From an uncultured Myxococcales bacterium (GTDB lineage: Bacteria > Myxococcota_A > Polyangia > Polyangiales > Polyangiaceae), in assembly GCA_937902985.1 (NCBI GenBank), contig CALFNG010000224.1, forward strand, positions 1-52,450: 52,450 bases of DNA, read 5' to 3'. Below, in pieces: positions 46,299 through 52,450 of the stretch; position 1 is the first letter of the stretch; the number at the start of each line of letters is the position of its first letter. A model generated the notes under the pieces. That model had not been told where the DNA came from. It ran no database searches and saw nothing but the letters and a program-made list of their open reading frames with translations. Both the position numbers and the translations under genes were made by a program.

Positions 46299-47915
46299 TC
46301 ACGTGGCCGACAGCATCGGTTCGCGCTCGCCGACCGGCGGGGGCGCGCCGACGACCGGCAGCGACACCCGGCGCAGCGGCAATACCGCGGCCGACGGCTC
46401 GGCTTCGACCTGGCGGAGAGCCTCCGCGAGCCGCGGGAGGACCACCTCTTCGGTGTATCGGATCATGTGCTCGCCGCGCACGGCGCACGCGATCGCCACC
46501 CGCACGGCGTGCTGTCCGCGCGGCAGAGCGCGCACGAGCAGCCGCCAGAAGAGCGCTCGCCTCGCGCCGCGAATCCCGAGACGATAGATGGAGCGAACCG
46601 CGACTTGCACGTCTTCGAAGAGCGGCGTCGTGGGGTGGGCCGGCGCGCCGATGCGGTCGACGAGCACCGCGCTCCGCCGGAAATACGCGTCGGCCTGGTA
46701 GAGTCGGGACAGGAGCGCCGCGTAGCCCTCGACGAGCTCGCGCTCGGGCATGGTGGGTCGAAAATTCGGCCGCGAGAAAGCATCGCCATCGGAGTGATCG
46801 CGCAGCCGCCCCTCGCGCTCGAGCCTGCGCCACAGGGCCGTGGCGGGGAGAGCGATCAAGAGGCCCGTCATCGCGAGCGGCAGCGGCGCGTCGCGAAGCA
46901 GCTCCTCTTGTGCCTCGAAGCTCTCGTGTCCGTCGCCGTCGAAGCCGACGATGAACCCCGCCATCACCTCGATCCCGGCGGCCGTGAGCCGGTCGAGCGC
47001 CGCAGGGACGTCGATGCCGATGTTCTGGCGCTTGCCGGTCTTCTTCAAGGCCACGGCGTCGGTCGTCTCGATCCCGATGAACACCGACGTGAAGCTCGCC
47101 TCGCGCATCGCTTCGATGAGCTTCTCGTCGGTGGCCAGGTTCAGGCTCGCTTCGGTGTAGAACGTGAACGGGTACCCGGCCTGCGCTTGCCAGCGAGCGA
47201 GCTCGCCGAGTGTCGCCCGGACCGCCTTCTTGTTGCCGATGAAGTTGTCGTCGACGATGAAGATTTCGCCCCGGTAGCCCAGCGCGCGCAGCGCCTCGAG
47301 CTCGGCGATCGCCTGGTCAGGCTTCTTCAGCCGCGGCACGCGCCCGAAGATCTCGATGATATCGCAGAACTCGCACATGAAGGGACAGCCGCGCGACGTC
47401 TGGATGCACATCGAGCGGTAGCTCCCGATGTCGAGCAGGTCGAACCGAGGAACCGGCACCTCGTGAAGCGACGGACGCGCCGCCGGAGCCTCGAGGATGC
47501 GCGGCGTGCCGGGCCGCGCCTCGATCGCCGCGACGAGCGCTTCGACCCGACCCTCGGCTTCGCCGAGGAACAAGCAGTCCGCGTCGTCGAATCGCTCCGG
47601 CGAGGTCGTGCACGCCGGTCCCCCGACCACCGTCCGCCGGCCGAGCCGCCGTGCGAGCGCCAGGACCTCGTGCAGCGACGGCTCCTGCACGAGCATGCCG
47701 CCCGTCAGCACGACATCGGACCAGCGCACGTCGTCGGCCTCCAGCGGCCGAACGTTCATGTCCACGAGCCGGATGTCCCAATCGGGCGGCAACAGCGCCG
47801 CCACCGAGATCAACCCGAGCGGCGGCAACGTGGCTCGCTTGCCGATCAGGTCCAGGCTGTGTTGGAAGCCCCAGTACGTGGTTGGAAACTCGGGATGGAC
47901 GAGCAGCGCGCGCAT
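46299..47915 (-). CDS. B12-binding radical SAM enzyme with DUF4070 C-terminus
   Basis: 538 residues from ATG 47915. The N-terminal Rossmann cobalamin-binding domain has LLVHPEFPTTYWGFQHSL, PPLGLISVAALLPPDWDIRL and VVGGPACTTSPERF. The radical SAM core has the CxxxCxxC iron-sulfur motif in TSRGCPFMCEFCDI near residue 176, then FIVDDNFIGNKKAV and VFIGIETTDAVALKKTGKRQ. The C-terminal DUF4070 region ends SIYRLGIRGARRALFWRLLV. This layout occurs in class B methylases such as HpnP (hopanoid C-2 methylation) and in related unassigned enzymes. Substrate unknown; a methyl transfer to an unactivated carbon is the best guess. The longer frame upstream of 47915 is not coding. Confidence 0.92.
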   Translation of the reverse strand: MRALLVHPEFPTTYWGFQHSLDLIGKRATLPPLGLISVAALLPPDWDIRLVDMNVRPLEADDVRWSDVVLTGGMLVQEPSLHEVLALARRLGRRTVVGGPACTTSPERFDDADCLFLGEAEGRVEALVAAIEARPGTPRILEAPAARPSLHEVPVPRFDLLDIGSYRSMCIQTSRGCPFMCEFCDIIEIFGRVPRLKKPDQAIAELEALRALGYRGEIFIVDDNFIGNKKAVRATLGELARWQAQAGYPFTFYTEASLNLATDEKLIEAMREASFTSVFIGIETTDAVALKKTGKRQNIGIDVPAALDRLTAAGIEVMAGFIVGFDGDGHESFEAQEELLRDAPLPLAMTGLLIALPATALWRRLEREGRLRDHSDGDAFSRPNFRPTMPERELVEGYAALLSRLYQADAYFRRSAVLVDRIGAPAHPTTPLFEDVQVAVRSIYRLGIRGARRALFWRLLVRALPRGQHAVRVAIACAVRGEHMIRYTEEVVLPRLAEALRQVEAEPSAAVLPLRRVSLPVVGAPPPVGEREPMLSAT

Positions 47916-48179
47916 CGCGCACGCTGTTGCAGGGCGGATGCCAATCGTGTCGGCCGCTTGCGAAACACGCCCGAGCGCGCGAGGCGCTCGAAGCGCGGCC
48001 ACGCCAGGCGAGCCGAATGCGCGGCCTGTGCGGATCCGACCTCGCCGTCGAGGCCGCTGTGTCCGCCGCTCGGCCAGCGCGCTCGAGGCTGCACCGCCGC
48101 GCCTCTTGCAGCTTGCGAACCTCTTTTTGCTCGATGCGAACGCGCCTGGCTGGATTCGAGTCTGTCCACGCTCGCAGGG

Positions 48180-48419
48180 ATGCAGTCGCTCGCCGAGTCC
48201 AGCGTGGCGGGGGGCAGCGCGGTATACGGGCCTGGGGCGTGCGACTCGTGGTTCACGGGCGCAGACTTCCGGTCGACGCCGACCTGCATCGCGTCCATAT
48301 CGGTGGCCGTGAGGAGCGACTCGACGCCAGCCGACAAGGGCAAGGACGGCCATGCCGTGACGTTCAGCGGCTCGGTGCAGCTGCCGGACGCACCACCTGC
48401 GCCCAGACCTGCCAAATGA
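48180..48419 (+). CDS. Small unrecognised ORF, coupled to the following remnant
   Basis: ATG 48180 to the stop at 48419, 79 residues, about 85% G/C at third positions. The stop overlaps the ATG of the next frame (ATGA), the arrangement used by most true gene pairs in this window. The product (SVAGGSAVYGPGACDSWFTG, GHAVTFSGSVQLPDAPPAPR) has two Cys and a Pro-rich end and no signal peptide. It could be the C-terminal end of a truncated exported protein, since nothing upstream (47916-48179) is coding. Low certainty. Confidence 0.35.
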   Translation: MQSLAESSVAGGSAVYGPGACDSWFTGADFRSTPTCIASISVAVRSDSTPADKGKDGHAVTFSGSVQLPDAPPAPRPAK

Positions 48420-48705
48420 ACCTCGAAGAACGCCTCCTCGACTACCAGCGCCGGGTGCGGCCCATCGAGAAAGATCTCCGGGCCTTCGAGGGCGTGCGTC
48501 GCGTCGACGTCGGCTACCGCTACGTCGATGGCGAGCGAACGAACCGCGTCGCCGTCCGCCTCTTCGTCGCGGGTCCCAAGGCGGCAAGCGCAGCCAGGTC
48601 GCGGAACCTCGCGCCGAAGACCATGGCCGGTCTCCCGCTCGACGTCATGCCGTTCGCGTCGGCGAGGACCGTCGCGCCCGTCGATCTGGTGACGACGGAG
48701 CCGGG
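48416..48705 (+). pseudogene. 5' fragment of a family with N-terminal protease-like propeptide (truncated)
   Basis: ATG 48416 starts NLEERLLDYQRRVRPIEKDL, then VRRVDVGYRYVDGERTNRVA followed by VRLFVAGPK and AGLPLDVMPFA. This succession resembles the N-terminus of bacterial trypsin-like or unknown proteins that begin VVGVGVGYKYVDG...VVLVEKK...GVPVDV (from memory). Coding bias stops at about 48705. The frame drifts on to 49066 across the 3' end of the convergent RND gene with poor codon use. The catalytic part is therefore missing: the gene was probably truncated when the neighbouring gene arrived. Confidence 0.5.
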
Positions 48706-48777: not shown

Positions 48778-51279
48778 TCATCCCCGTGTCGCTTCGATGC
48801 TCGCCCGCGCGTCCACGCGCCGCGAACGCGTCAGCACCAGCCAGGCCGGCAGCGCGACGACGGCGGCCGTCAAGCACGCGATCTCTCCGAGAACCGCGAG
48901 CAATCCGAAAAGAAACAGAGCGCGGTTCCTGGCGAGAAGCAGCGACGAGTATCCGATGATCGTCGTCAGCGAACAAAGCGCCACCGCGCTGCCCGTCGAC
49001 CTCACGGCGCCTTGCACGTCGCGCTCTCCGTCTTGCACGTATCGCGTCATCACGTTCACGGCATAGTCGACGCCGATGCCAAGCGTGATCGGGAACGCGA
49101 TGAAGTTCGAGAAGTTGATCTTGATCCCCAGCGCCATCGTCGCGCCACCCAGCCAGAGGACGCCGAGCAACAGCGCTCCGATCACGTAGAAGGCCGCCCT
49201 TCGAGCTCGGAGCACGACGAGGACGACCACGACGACGCCTAGAAACGAGACGAGGCTCGCGATCGGGGCGTCGCGTCCGATGGACGAGAGAATGTCGCTC
49301 GACAACGGGATCGAGCCCGCGACCCGGCCAGCCGTCCCGTCCGGACCGGCCGCGGCGCCCGCCAGGTCGCGCAGTGTGCGGACGAAGAGATGCATCGACG
49401 ACGCCTTCCAGAGCGCGTCGGACGGTCGCGGATAGACGAGAACGGTGCGCCCGATCGAACCGTCGCGCTCCCGGAGCCCCATCGTGAACGAGTGGGGGAG
49501 ATCGCTCGTCGCGATGGGCACGAGGTTCGAGTCGCCGAGGAGGCGGTCAATCTGCTCGCGCTTGTCGGGCTCGAGCAGCGAACGAATTTTCGGCGTGAGC
49601 GCTTCGCGAATCGCTCGCGCCTCTGCGATCTTGGGCTCCTGCTCCGTCGGGAGCACGTCATCGGCGCCCACCACGCGAGCGACCATCGGCTCGAGCGTGC
49701 CGTGGTCTGCCGCATCGCGAACGAGCCTCTCGACGACCCGCGCTTGCTCGGGCGTGTCGCACAGAACGACCGTGGGCGTCAGGTAGTGTCCAAGGATCGC
49801 GTCCATCTTGCGACCCCAGTACCCTTCGCCGTTGATCCATGTGTCGGTCCGCCGCAACTTGTTGAAATCGTGCTCTAGAAACGACGAATCGAACCTCGCG
49901 ACGAGCACCACCGACGACGCGGCCAGAACGGCGGCGACGGCGACGATGGGGCCCGCGCGCCGCTCGACGAAGTTCACGAGGCGCCCGCCGCGCTCGGGCT
50001 GCTGCCTCGCGGCGATGGGCTTGCCGTCGTCGAGCCACTTGATGAGGGGCGGCACGAGTAGGAACGCAGTCGCCCACGACGCGAGCATCCCGATGCCACC
50101 AATGCACCCGAACTGCCGGAAACCACGAAACTCGGTGACCACGAGCGAGGCATACGAGACGCCGGCCGCGGCCGCGGCCGCGACCGTTCCGAGGCGCGCT
50201 CCCCAGACGCCAACGACGAGCGCGTCGTCGACGGAGGCGCCGCGTCTGCGCTCCTCCCGGTACCGAGCGAGCAAGATGAGCCCGACGTTGATGCCGTTGC
50301 CGACGATGATTGACCCGAGGAACGCCGTGTTCGAATTGAGCTCAGTGACCCCGAAGACGGGTAAGGATGCGATCGAAAACGCGTAGACCGTCGCGAGAAG
50401 GAGCGGCGGAAAGAGGACCAGAACGCTCTTCCACCATCGATAATAAAAGACGATGGCCGACATGACGGCGACTACGACGAGCACCGAGGAGACGGAGAGG
50501 TCCGCCTCGAGCGCGTCGAGTTCCTCGACGTTGATCGCAACGTCCGACGCGTACCCCACCCGGAGGCCCGCGGCATAGCGGGCGGGATCGAGGGCCGACA
50601 CGTCGGCCTTCACCCGGCGCAGGAGCTCGCGGTCTTGTGAGACACCGGTCGTGAACGCTCCTGCCTCGACGGTGAGCATCGCCGCCTTCAGGTCGCGGCT
50701 TTCGAGGTGGTCCGCCTGGTCGCGCGACAGCTTCGCGTCGTATTTTTTTTCGATGTCCGAAGCGTCGAGCGACGGGGGCGGGTCCTCCTCCTCGAGGAGC
50801 GCTCCCTGCGCCTTCGAGACCTCGTAGTCACGTCGCGCTTCGATGCGTCTCAGGATCTCCTTGAGGTCGGCGAGATCCGCGTAAAGCGGCGCGTTCCGTT
50901 CGAGGAAGGCCTTCTCCGCGGCGTTGCTCGATCGCACGTCCTGCACCAGTTCGACGGGGTAAGTGCGGATACGAGCCGCGAGGTCGTCGAGGAACCGCTC
51001 TGCCGCCGGTAGGTCCGAGAGATCGGAAACCTGGGCCACGACGCCCAGGAATTCCAGGCCGGGGTTCCGCGCGCGCATTTCGTCGAGCGCGCGCACGCTC
51101 GGCGCTTGCTGCGGAAGCAGCTGCTCGATCTCGCTCCGCAGGTGCACATAGAGATGGACCGTTCGAGCCGTCGCAGGGATCGCAAGGGCGAGCGCAACGA
51201 TCCAGAGAACGAGGCCGTTACGTAGCGACCACTCGACGTAGGCGCGCACCGCGCGCGAGGGGGTACCAGGCGGATTCAT
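48778..51279 (-). CDS. MMPL/RND-superfamily exporter (HpnN-like size)
   Basis: 833 residues from ATG 51279. Two repeated halves of six TM helices: TM1 LVLWIVALALAIPATARTVH, a large periplasmic loop (about 45-250), then VSSVLVVVAVMSAIVFYYRW, TELNSNTAFLGSIIVGNGIN and ASWATAFLLVPPLIKWLD. The second half has its own loop and IASLVSFLGVVVVVLVVLRA, NFSNFIAFPITLGIGVDYAV and SLTTIIGYSSLLLARNRALF. The motif GIGVDYAVNVMTRY carries the Asp of proton-coupled MMPL proteins. Family members export lipids, hopanoids (HpnN) or siderophores. Same strand as the radical SAM gene but separated by debris on the other strand, so an operon is doubtful. Confidence 0.9.
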   Translation of the reverse strand: MNPPGTPSRAVRAYVEWSLRNGLVLWIVALALAIPATARTVHLYVHLRSEIEQLLPQQAPSVRALDEMRARNPGLEFLGVVAQVSDLSDLPAAERFLDDLAARIRTYPVELVQDVRSSNAAEKAFLERNAPLYADLADLKEILRRIEARRDYEVSKAQGALLEEEDPPPSLDASDIEKKYDAKLSRDQADHLESRDLKAAMLTVEAGAFTTGVSQDRELLRRVKADVSALDPARYAAGLRVGYASDVAINVEELDALEADLSVSSVLVVVAVMSAIVFYYRWWKSVLVLFPPLLLATVYAFSIASLPVFGVTELNSNTAFLGSIIVGNGINVGLILLARYREERRRGASVDDALVVGVWGARLGTVAAAAAAGVSYASLVVTEFRGFRQFGCIGGIGMLASWATAFLLVPPLIKWLDDGKPIAARQQPERGGRLVNFVERRAGPIVAVAAVLAASSVVLVARFDSSFLEHDFNKLRRTDTWINGEGYWGRKMDAILGHYLTPTVVLCDTPEQARVVERLVRDAADHGTLEPMVARVVGADDVLPTEQEPKIAEARAIREALTPKIRSLLEPDKREQIDRLLGDSNLVPIATSDLPHSFTMGLRERDGSIGRTVLVYPRPSDALWKASSMHLFVRTLRDLAGAAAGPDGTAGRVAGSIPLSSDILSSIGRDAPIASLVSFLGVVVVVLVVLRARRAAFYVIGALLLGVLWLGGATMALGIKINFSNFIAFPITLGIGVDYAVNVMTRYVQDGERDVQGAVRSTGSAVALCSLTTIIGYSSLLLARNRALFLFGLLAVLGEIACLTAAVVALPAWLVLTRSRRVDARASIEATRG

Positions 51280-51396
51280 GAGCGGGCCTGACTGGGCTCC
51301 GCAGGCGGAGAACGTACCCTCGACGACTGAGCGGCGACGGTGCGGGGCGAAGTCGAAACGAGCTGCACCCGCGCACCATACGAAAGGTCTCCCCTC
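51280..51396. other. Short gap upstream of the RND exporter
   Basis: Between the exporter start (51279, minus) and the hydrolase debris nothing gene-like is visible. It should hold the exporter's promoter; no clear hexamer pair was recognised. Confidence 0.4.
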
Positions 51397-51739
51397 CTAG
51401 CGAGTCAGGTACGCGATGGGCAACGCTGAGGACGCCCCAAATTGCGTGCTCGAGCGTGTCGCAGGGACGGTGTCGAGACTCACGATTCCTGCGTCTCTGG
51501 CCGGGTCCTGGCGGGCAGCCGCCTTGCGCGGCCATACTGAGCCCGGTGGTTGCCTCGGAGCCGTTTGTTCCGGTGCCGTGCCAGTAAATGATGATCGGGC
51601 CGCCCGATCCCGACGTCGACTTGGTCCCCACCCACAGTGCCCAGGTCATTGCCGTGCCGTTCACGTGATGCTCGGCCGCGAACACCGGCGGCGACAACGT
51701 GGAGACCAACAGGCCGAGGGCAAGGGCTGTCGTCTTCAT
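51397..51739 (-). pseudogene. Remnant of a secreted alpha/beta hydrolase (PHB-depolymerase-like)
   Basis: ATG 51739, with AAAGGAT just upstream, opens a signal peptide (KTTALALGLLVSTLSPPVFA|AEHH) and the start of an esterase: AMTWALWVGTKSTSGSGGPI followed by IIYWHGTGTNGSEATTGL, where YWHGTG is the oxyanion-hole motif of secreted PHB-depolymerase/feruloyl-esterase types. After about residue 60 coding bias is lost. A frameshifted end (GIVSLDTVPATRSSTQFGAS) closes at TAG 51397. The nucleophile GxSxG and the rest of the fold are absent, so the gene is internally deleted and frameshifted. Its promoter region lies against the 44-bp repeat array. Confidence 0.6.
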
Positions 51740-51789
51740 TGCGGGATCCTTTCGGATGGCGAGGCCCGCCCCGATTCGCTGCCGCTTGA

Positions 51790-52450
51790 GCGCAGGTCTC
51801 CCATAACTCGCGACATGACTCGCCATCGCTCGAGAGCCAGGTGCCCGTCTCTCGCGACATGAGTCGTCATCGCTCGAGAGCCAGGTTCCCGTCTCTCGCG
51901 ACATGACTCGTCATCGCTCGAGAGCCAGGTTCCCGTCTCTCGCGACATGACTCGTCGTCGCTCGAGAGCAAGGCTCCCGTCTCTCGCAACATGACTCGTC
52001 GTCGCTCGAGAGCAAGGCTCCCGTCTCTCGCGACATGACTCGTCGTCGCTCGAGAGCAAGGCACGTTCCGCTCGCGAGATGACTCGTCGTCGCTAGAGAG
52101 CACGTTTCCCGTCTCTCGCGACATGAGTCGTTGTCACTCGAAAGCCAGGTTCCCGTCGGTAGCTAGATGAGTCGTCGTCGTTCGAGAGGATGTTTCCCGT
52201 CTCTCGCGACATGAGTCGTCATCGCTCGAGAGCCAGGTTCCCGTCATTCGCGAGATGACTCGCCGTCGCTCGAGAGCCAGGTTCCGATCGCTCGCGAGAT
52301 GACTCGTCGTCGCTCGAGAGCACGTTTCCCGTCGCTCGCGACCTGACTCGTCGTCGCTAGACACCAAGGTTCCCGTCGCTCTTATCATGACTAGTCATCA
52401 CTCGAGAGCAAGGTCTCCGTCGCTCGCGTCATGACTCGTCATCGGTCGCG
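51790..52450. repeat. 44-bp tandem array of self-complementary units (at least 15 copies)
   Basis: The hallmark ATGACTCG-type core recurs at 51815, 51859, 51903 and every 44 bases to 52431: 15 copies with no insertion or deletion, running off the window end. A degenerate half-unit is seen near 51776-51800. Within a unit (for example 51893-51924), CTCTC-GCG-ac-ATGAC-tc-GTCAT-CGC-tc-GAGAG forms a 13-bp stem with two small bulges. The 12-13 base linker (CCAGGTTCCC, CAAGGCTCCC or CACGTTTCCC) varies more. The period is not a multiple of three, so it does not encode a simple peptide repeat, and there are no unique spacers, so it is not CRISPR. Confidence 0.92.

Follow-up and report, generated by a model that had tools for sequence, protein, structure and literature searches.

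Introduction

Subirana and Messeguer described bacterial satellites in which the length of the repeat is constant while its sequence varies, and their founding paper (2020, J Bacteriol) reportedly gave sizes of 22/44 and 52 nt. In Bacillus such tandem repeats measure 20-21 or 52 nt; single species from many bacterial groups have repeats of 20-23 nt (PMC8161180). They are species-specific, occur as several families per genome that have short motifs in common, and have been assigned no function (PMC8161180). Non-coding satellite families that were transposed around one genome have also been described in Leptospira interrogans and Methanocella conradii (PMC6749651).

Here we analyse a stretch of 52,450 nucleotides (the window) from an uncultured Myxococcales bacterium. 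The window is the entire contig C224 of an 8.3-Mb genome in 563 contigs with an estimated contamination of 3.4%, and it ends in a tandem array that we compare with these satellites.

Results

A 44-bp satellite array at the end of the window

The final 646 bases of the window (51805..52450, no strand assigned) form a 44-bp satellite array of 14 full units and a partial one, joined head-to-tail without spacers and running to the contig end. TRF reported the array at 51807-52448 with a period of 44, 14.6 copies, 83% match, a score of 790 and 1% indels, confirming the tandem array that an earlier sequence-only reading had described. That reading had placed the start at 51790 and counted fifteen copies without an indel. 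When the sequence is set out from 51805 with 44 bases to a row, the net register is indeed unbroken across 14.6 units. However, it begins only at about 51805, and is preceded by a degenerate partial outermost unit and the array edge (51761..51804, no strand assigned), which show homology to the edge of the array on another contig, C47. In addition to the indels reported by TRF, the unit at 52025-52068 has a scrambled linker, with AAGGCACGTTC in place of AAGGCTCCCGT at unchanged length, which looks like compensating changes. The array consensus, CTCTCGCGACATGACTCGTCGTCGCTCGAGAGCAAGGTTCCCGT, consists of two 22-bp half-repeats with GTC(G/T)CTCG in common.

Since the window is the whole of C224, its array is truncated by the assembly. 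Contig C356 terminates in an array oriented correctly for the far side of the C224 array and may be its other side. Arrays of 22/44 bp break assemblies, and several of them finish at contig edges.

Short minus-strand open frames cross the window array, as they might if the repeats lay inside a protein-coding gene. These frames are broken and span 84-107 aa, one that was examined had no Pfam match, and, 44 not being divisible by three, the reading frame shifts from unit to unit. Predicted genes cover none of the arrays (GC-frame heuristic), with a short 22-bp array on C219 being scored possibly coding. Frame changes, broken frames and intergenic position refute coding repeats as far as sequence allows, and we assign this explanation a negligible probability. 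A CRISPR array was rejected as well, the units being contiguous and unique spacers absent. The earlier view that CRISPR, integron attC and coding repeats all fail to fit was borne out.

Downstream of the array, and on the same strand, is a probable secreted-protein gene remnant (51218..51739, minus strand). It encodes a signal peptide, MKTTALALGLLVSTLSPPVFA, followed by about 50 plausible residues, and gave no Pfam match. The nearest intact gene encodes an MMPL-family (RND-type) membrane protein (48778..51279, minus strand), and beyond it Pfam identified a B12-binding radical SAM protein with DUF4070 (46302-48587, minus strand). C224 and C47 have a leader in common (51671..51804, minus strand), comprising the array edge, a CTCAAGCGGCAGCGAATC block, a ribosome-binding region and a signal-peptide start, that is 97% identical over the 95 bp adjoining the gene. 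The phosphoesterase gene on C47 (L041:1-520) and the window remnant (51671-51739) thus have a common leader and signal-peptide start with different bodies, and both of these secreted-protein genes adjoin an array.

A 22-bp half-register rather than a hairpin organises the unit

The sequence-only reading had proposed a 13-bp stem in every unit, with G-U-type changes that keep pairing and linkers that vary while the stem is kept. The proposed stem, which amounts to 5+3+5 pairs with two 2-nt bulges, does pair in 85.8% of cells. The symmetry is nevertheless marginal, as 26 of the 44 positions of the window consensus agreed with its reverse complement (20.9 in shuffles, p = 0.04). Shifted by 22 bp, the consensus matched itself at 22 of 44 positions (10.8 in shuffles, p = 0.005). 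Linker columns were more variable than stem columns, though weakly (p = 0.036), and 6 of the 44 possible rotations equalled this excess. The covariation analysis which that reading had called for was run with two structures and two alignments. No covariation was found among the window units, where 95-427 of 500 shuffles attained the observed measures, or after related arrays were added (454-497 of 500). G-U-type changes are therefore present, but the compensatory, pairing-preserving changes expected of a structured RNA hairpin array did not rise above shuffles.

Across the consensus units, inverted repeats with 9-bp arms and loops of up to 6 were not above chance overall (Fisher p ~0.5), and a dyad per unit is thus not a general rule. 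The 22-bp internal repeat was detected at p <= 0.004 in the C356, B (C142/C446), D (C258), C7, C541 and C16 arrays and at p = 0.012 in C101, and was unclear in C479, C377 and C213. Taken together, the half-repeat, covariation and substitution tests indicate that the symmetry of the unit arises largely because its two 22-bp halves are similar. The organising principle is the 22-bp half-register and not a symmetric hairpin unit.

These results bear on the proposal that the array is transcribed into RNA hairpins, one per 44-nt unit, which would act as a structured or sponge RNA. The extent of stem pairing is in keeping with this, both array strands fold better than 20 shuffles (z ~ -2.4 and -2.7), and in Bacillus coagulans satellites of 52 nt are transcribed (PMC8625621). 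However, besides the lack of compensatory changes, Rfam returned chance-level matches only and no family, and the array-wide fold differs from the proposed per-unit hairpin. The orientation of the arrays relative to genes is also inconsistent, since flanking genes are convergent at C101, divergent at C479, C169, C205 and C216, and co-directional at C541 and C504. We therefore consider an RNA role improbable, and the structured-RNA array of the sequence-only reading is not upheld. At C101, the array (L163:6998-11276) has a methyltransferase gene on one side and, on the other, a convergently oriented gene for an SNF2-family helicase.

Arrays in the 22/44 register across the genome

Profile and motif searches, together with TRF runs on retrieved contigs, located intergenic arrays with a 44- or 22-bp period on about 30 contigs of this genome, in at least seven different sequences. 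Two contig ends may belong to one and the same array, and the census is incomplete; the number of loci is for this reason given as 25-30 and is not exact. BLAST placed the window family also at the ends of contigs C356 and C47, and a cousin on C142 and C65. Searching with a single unit as profile contributed C446 and C280, while an 88-bp profile added C377, C258, C89, C7, C169, C541 and C213, all with a TRF period of 44, and C256 with a period of 66. The C479 array, internal to its contig (L140:3321-3940), was recognised by inspecting a weak match; it is a 44-bp array with 64% unit identity and higher-order repeats of 88, 132 and 220 bp. These higher-order repeats resemble those of eukaryotic satellites. 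Period 44 is thus kept despite differing sequence on C224, C356, C142, C65, C446, C479 and the seven period-44 contigs added by the 88-bp profile. On C446 (L082:1-510), a CTCGAGTGATG family array and a degenerate GCGACAT/ATGTCGC array stand back to back and precede a DUF2330 gene. Another 22-bp array, GTCGCTCGGTGCAAGC(A/G)CCCTC at C468:13793-13866, is known from a pattern match alone.

Since the profile-derived arrays had been found by similarity, we also surveyed with TRF a sample of contigs chosen regardless of content. This comprised up to 20 kb each from 80 contigs, 0.91 Mb in total (C1-C21 without C7, C101-C120, C201-C221 without C213, and C501-C520). Six of the seven intergenic arrays whose period was not divisible by 3 were 22/44-bp arrays (C15, C16, C101, C205, C216 and C504), and the seventh had a period of 23. 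Against a uniform choice among such periods from 16 to 100, this excess has p ~1.6e-7. Extrapolation of six arrays per 0.91 Mb would give about 55 in this fragmented genome. The register is not absolute, since the C16 array (L157:1-372, GCGATGG family) alternates 43- and 44-bp units in an 87-bp period, the C207 array contains one one-base slip, and the same sample held two or three intergenic 21/42-bp arrays (two of 42 bp and one of 21/42). GCGATGG pairs show the 22-bp spacing within known arrays, against a high chance background. No hidden 22/44 periodicity was found genome-wide outside the arrays. These data show that the window array is one of some 25-30 dispersed intergenic satellites with several unrelated units, nearly all in the 22/44 register. 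The expanding satellite suggested earlier is supported to the extent that the array is a member of this genome-wide set.

A short motif and its register are conserved in at least one family

In the C101 array, the 44-bp unit consists of ATGTCGCTC, 13 variable bases, nGnGCGACATG and further variable bases. When ATGTCGCTC N4-30 GAGCGACAT was searched across the taxonomic family, matches were obtained in this genome only, and always with an interval of 14 bases. The pattern ATGTCGC N4-34 GCGACAT occurred at 26 sites in 8 loci of the genome, 25 of them at exactly N18, and the reversed motif pair gave zero matches. Pairs on one contig recur at approximately multiples of 44 (44, 88 and 132, with 89 on C207). 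On C207, spacer identity is 31%, close to the value predicted from base composition, while the motif and the alternating 22-bp register are kept. Considering C207 and C101 together, spacer identity is 31-49% while the short motif and the register survive. For GTCGCTCG, a half-site of the window family, 22 bp was the commonest spacing between pairs (8 of 23). Taken together, these results show that, in at least one family, the conserved quantity is a short motif with its 22-bp register and not the repeat itself.

Species-specific sequences and shared array ends

Among 184 genomes of the order, the window family was matched at chance level only, and a three-motif pattern was present in one of 379 genomes of the phylum, namely this one. 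None of the repeat families of this genome was found in the relatives searched. The exact core pattern had no match in GTDB contigs or IMG/VR. Relatives carry intergenic 21/42-bp arrays of their own (L209:21-310, L205:14536-14829, L216:17750-18016 and L199:9022-9248, with L209 scored possibly coding elsewhere). Arrays of 21 or 42 bp outside genes predicted by the heuristic were thus seen on C520 (L262:1893-2286) and in four relatives.

End segments are common to C446, C207 and C365, to C224 and C47 (together with the gene leader), and to C142 and C65. Since these segments recur on different contigs, it seems that the edges travel along when an array moves or is duplicated; no transposase was found.

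These observations would suit a selfish or neutral satellite without cellular function, in which copying (slippage, rolling-circle or a helical-phase constraint) sets the 22/44 period and dispersal proceeds via the end-sharing segments. The sequences are species-specific and missing from relatives, higher-order repeats show rapid turnover, and the shared ends are themselves in agreement with such spread. A constant period could come from an amplification process instead of from binding, and, as the way the arrays are copied may likewise determine the period, we regard this reading as a plausible minority view. However, a pure copying artefact should lose motif and register together, while a single spacing is found in 25 of the 26 motif pairs and, on C207 and C101, motif and register persist as spacers fall to 31-49% identity. 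The data from these two contigs argue against a selfish satellite as the whole story.

Discussion

A span of 22 bp is slightly above two turns of relaxed B-DNA. Short motifs and 22-bp spacing are kept while the intervening DNA diverges, and protein binding is for this reason the best supported reading. We give about even credence to the view that the arrays are sets of binding sites, phased at two helical turns, to which a putative oligomerising DNA-binding protein would attach. The clustered protein-binding site of the sequence-only reading is thus retained as the candidate function best supported by sequence, organised by the 22-bp half-register and not by a symmetric unit. Counting against the binding model, the window array taken alone separates core from linker weakly (p = 0.036). 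The exceptions to the register (C16, C207 and the 21/42-bp arrays) and the lack of hidden 22/44 periodicity outside the arrays weigh on the same side.

According to the binding model, each 22-bp half-unit would carry a short recognition site for the putative protein, which would occupy successive sites, all turned to one face of the helix, and oligomerise along the DNA. Nucleoid structuring or silencing would be a compatible role. Recombination or slippage would grow, shrink and homogenise the arrays, giving rise to higher-order repeats and new families. The arrays would spread with their conserved end segments, and selection would act on site and spacing only.

More tentatively, the arrays may serve as platforms on which a new protein, nucleoid-associated or silencing, nucleates, a possibility that we hold to be doubtful. 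It is similarly speculative that such a protein would recognise sites of 7-9 bp placed every 22 bp, whether in direct or in alternating orientation, and would tolerate different families of sites provided that the two-turn register is maintained. If the nucleation-platform reading were true, the same principle would explain constant-length bacterial satellites generally. These satellites have so far been assigned no function, and the finding of motif and register makes the question accessible to a binding experiment.

The iterons that cluster at replication origins are directly repeated, about 20 bp long and helically phased. The arrays resemble them in being phased direct repeats of similar length and helical spacing, as would be expected of an iteron cluster or a plasmid or chromosome partition centromere bound by a Rep- or ParB/ParR-type protein. 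However, iteron or partition sites would form one cluster near an origin or par locus, while here there are about 25-30 dispersed loci of different sequence. Pfam revealed no Rep or Par gene among the nearest genes of seven arrays, and searches of phage and plasmid collections gave no match. We judge this explanation very improbable.

The ATGTCGC/GCGACAT family recalls CRISPR in that constant and variable stretches alternate at fixed spacing, and is unlike it in the 7-bp conserved part, the alternating orientation, the 12-/18-bp intervals and the many loci. The satellites of Leptospira interrogans and Methanocella conradii (PMC6749651) are dispersed and non-coding like the arrays described here.

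The closest likeness is to the satellites of Subirana and Messeguer, in which length is not set by codons and several families of the same length occur in one genome. Here, likewise, length is constant across differing families of one genome and falls, at 22 and 44 bp, in the 20-23-nt class or its double rather than the 52-nt class. The arrays are non-coding by GC-frame heuristic prediction (with C219 scored possibly coding), and their sequences are species-specific in searches of the order (184 genomes) and the phylum (379). The literature reached holds no report for this class of half-units, an alternating motif, shared ends or such a host. In the present genome, by comparison, the 44-bp units are each composed of two 22-bp half-units, one family flips a 7-bp motif alternately between nearly random spacers, end segments are common between arrays, and the host is probably myxobacterium-like. 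The arrays fit the constant-length, variable-sequence bacterial satellites as a new case.
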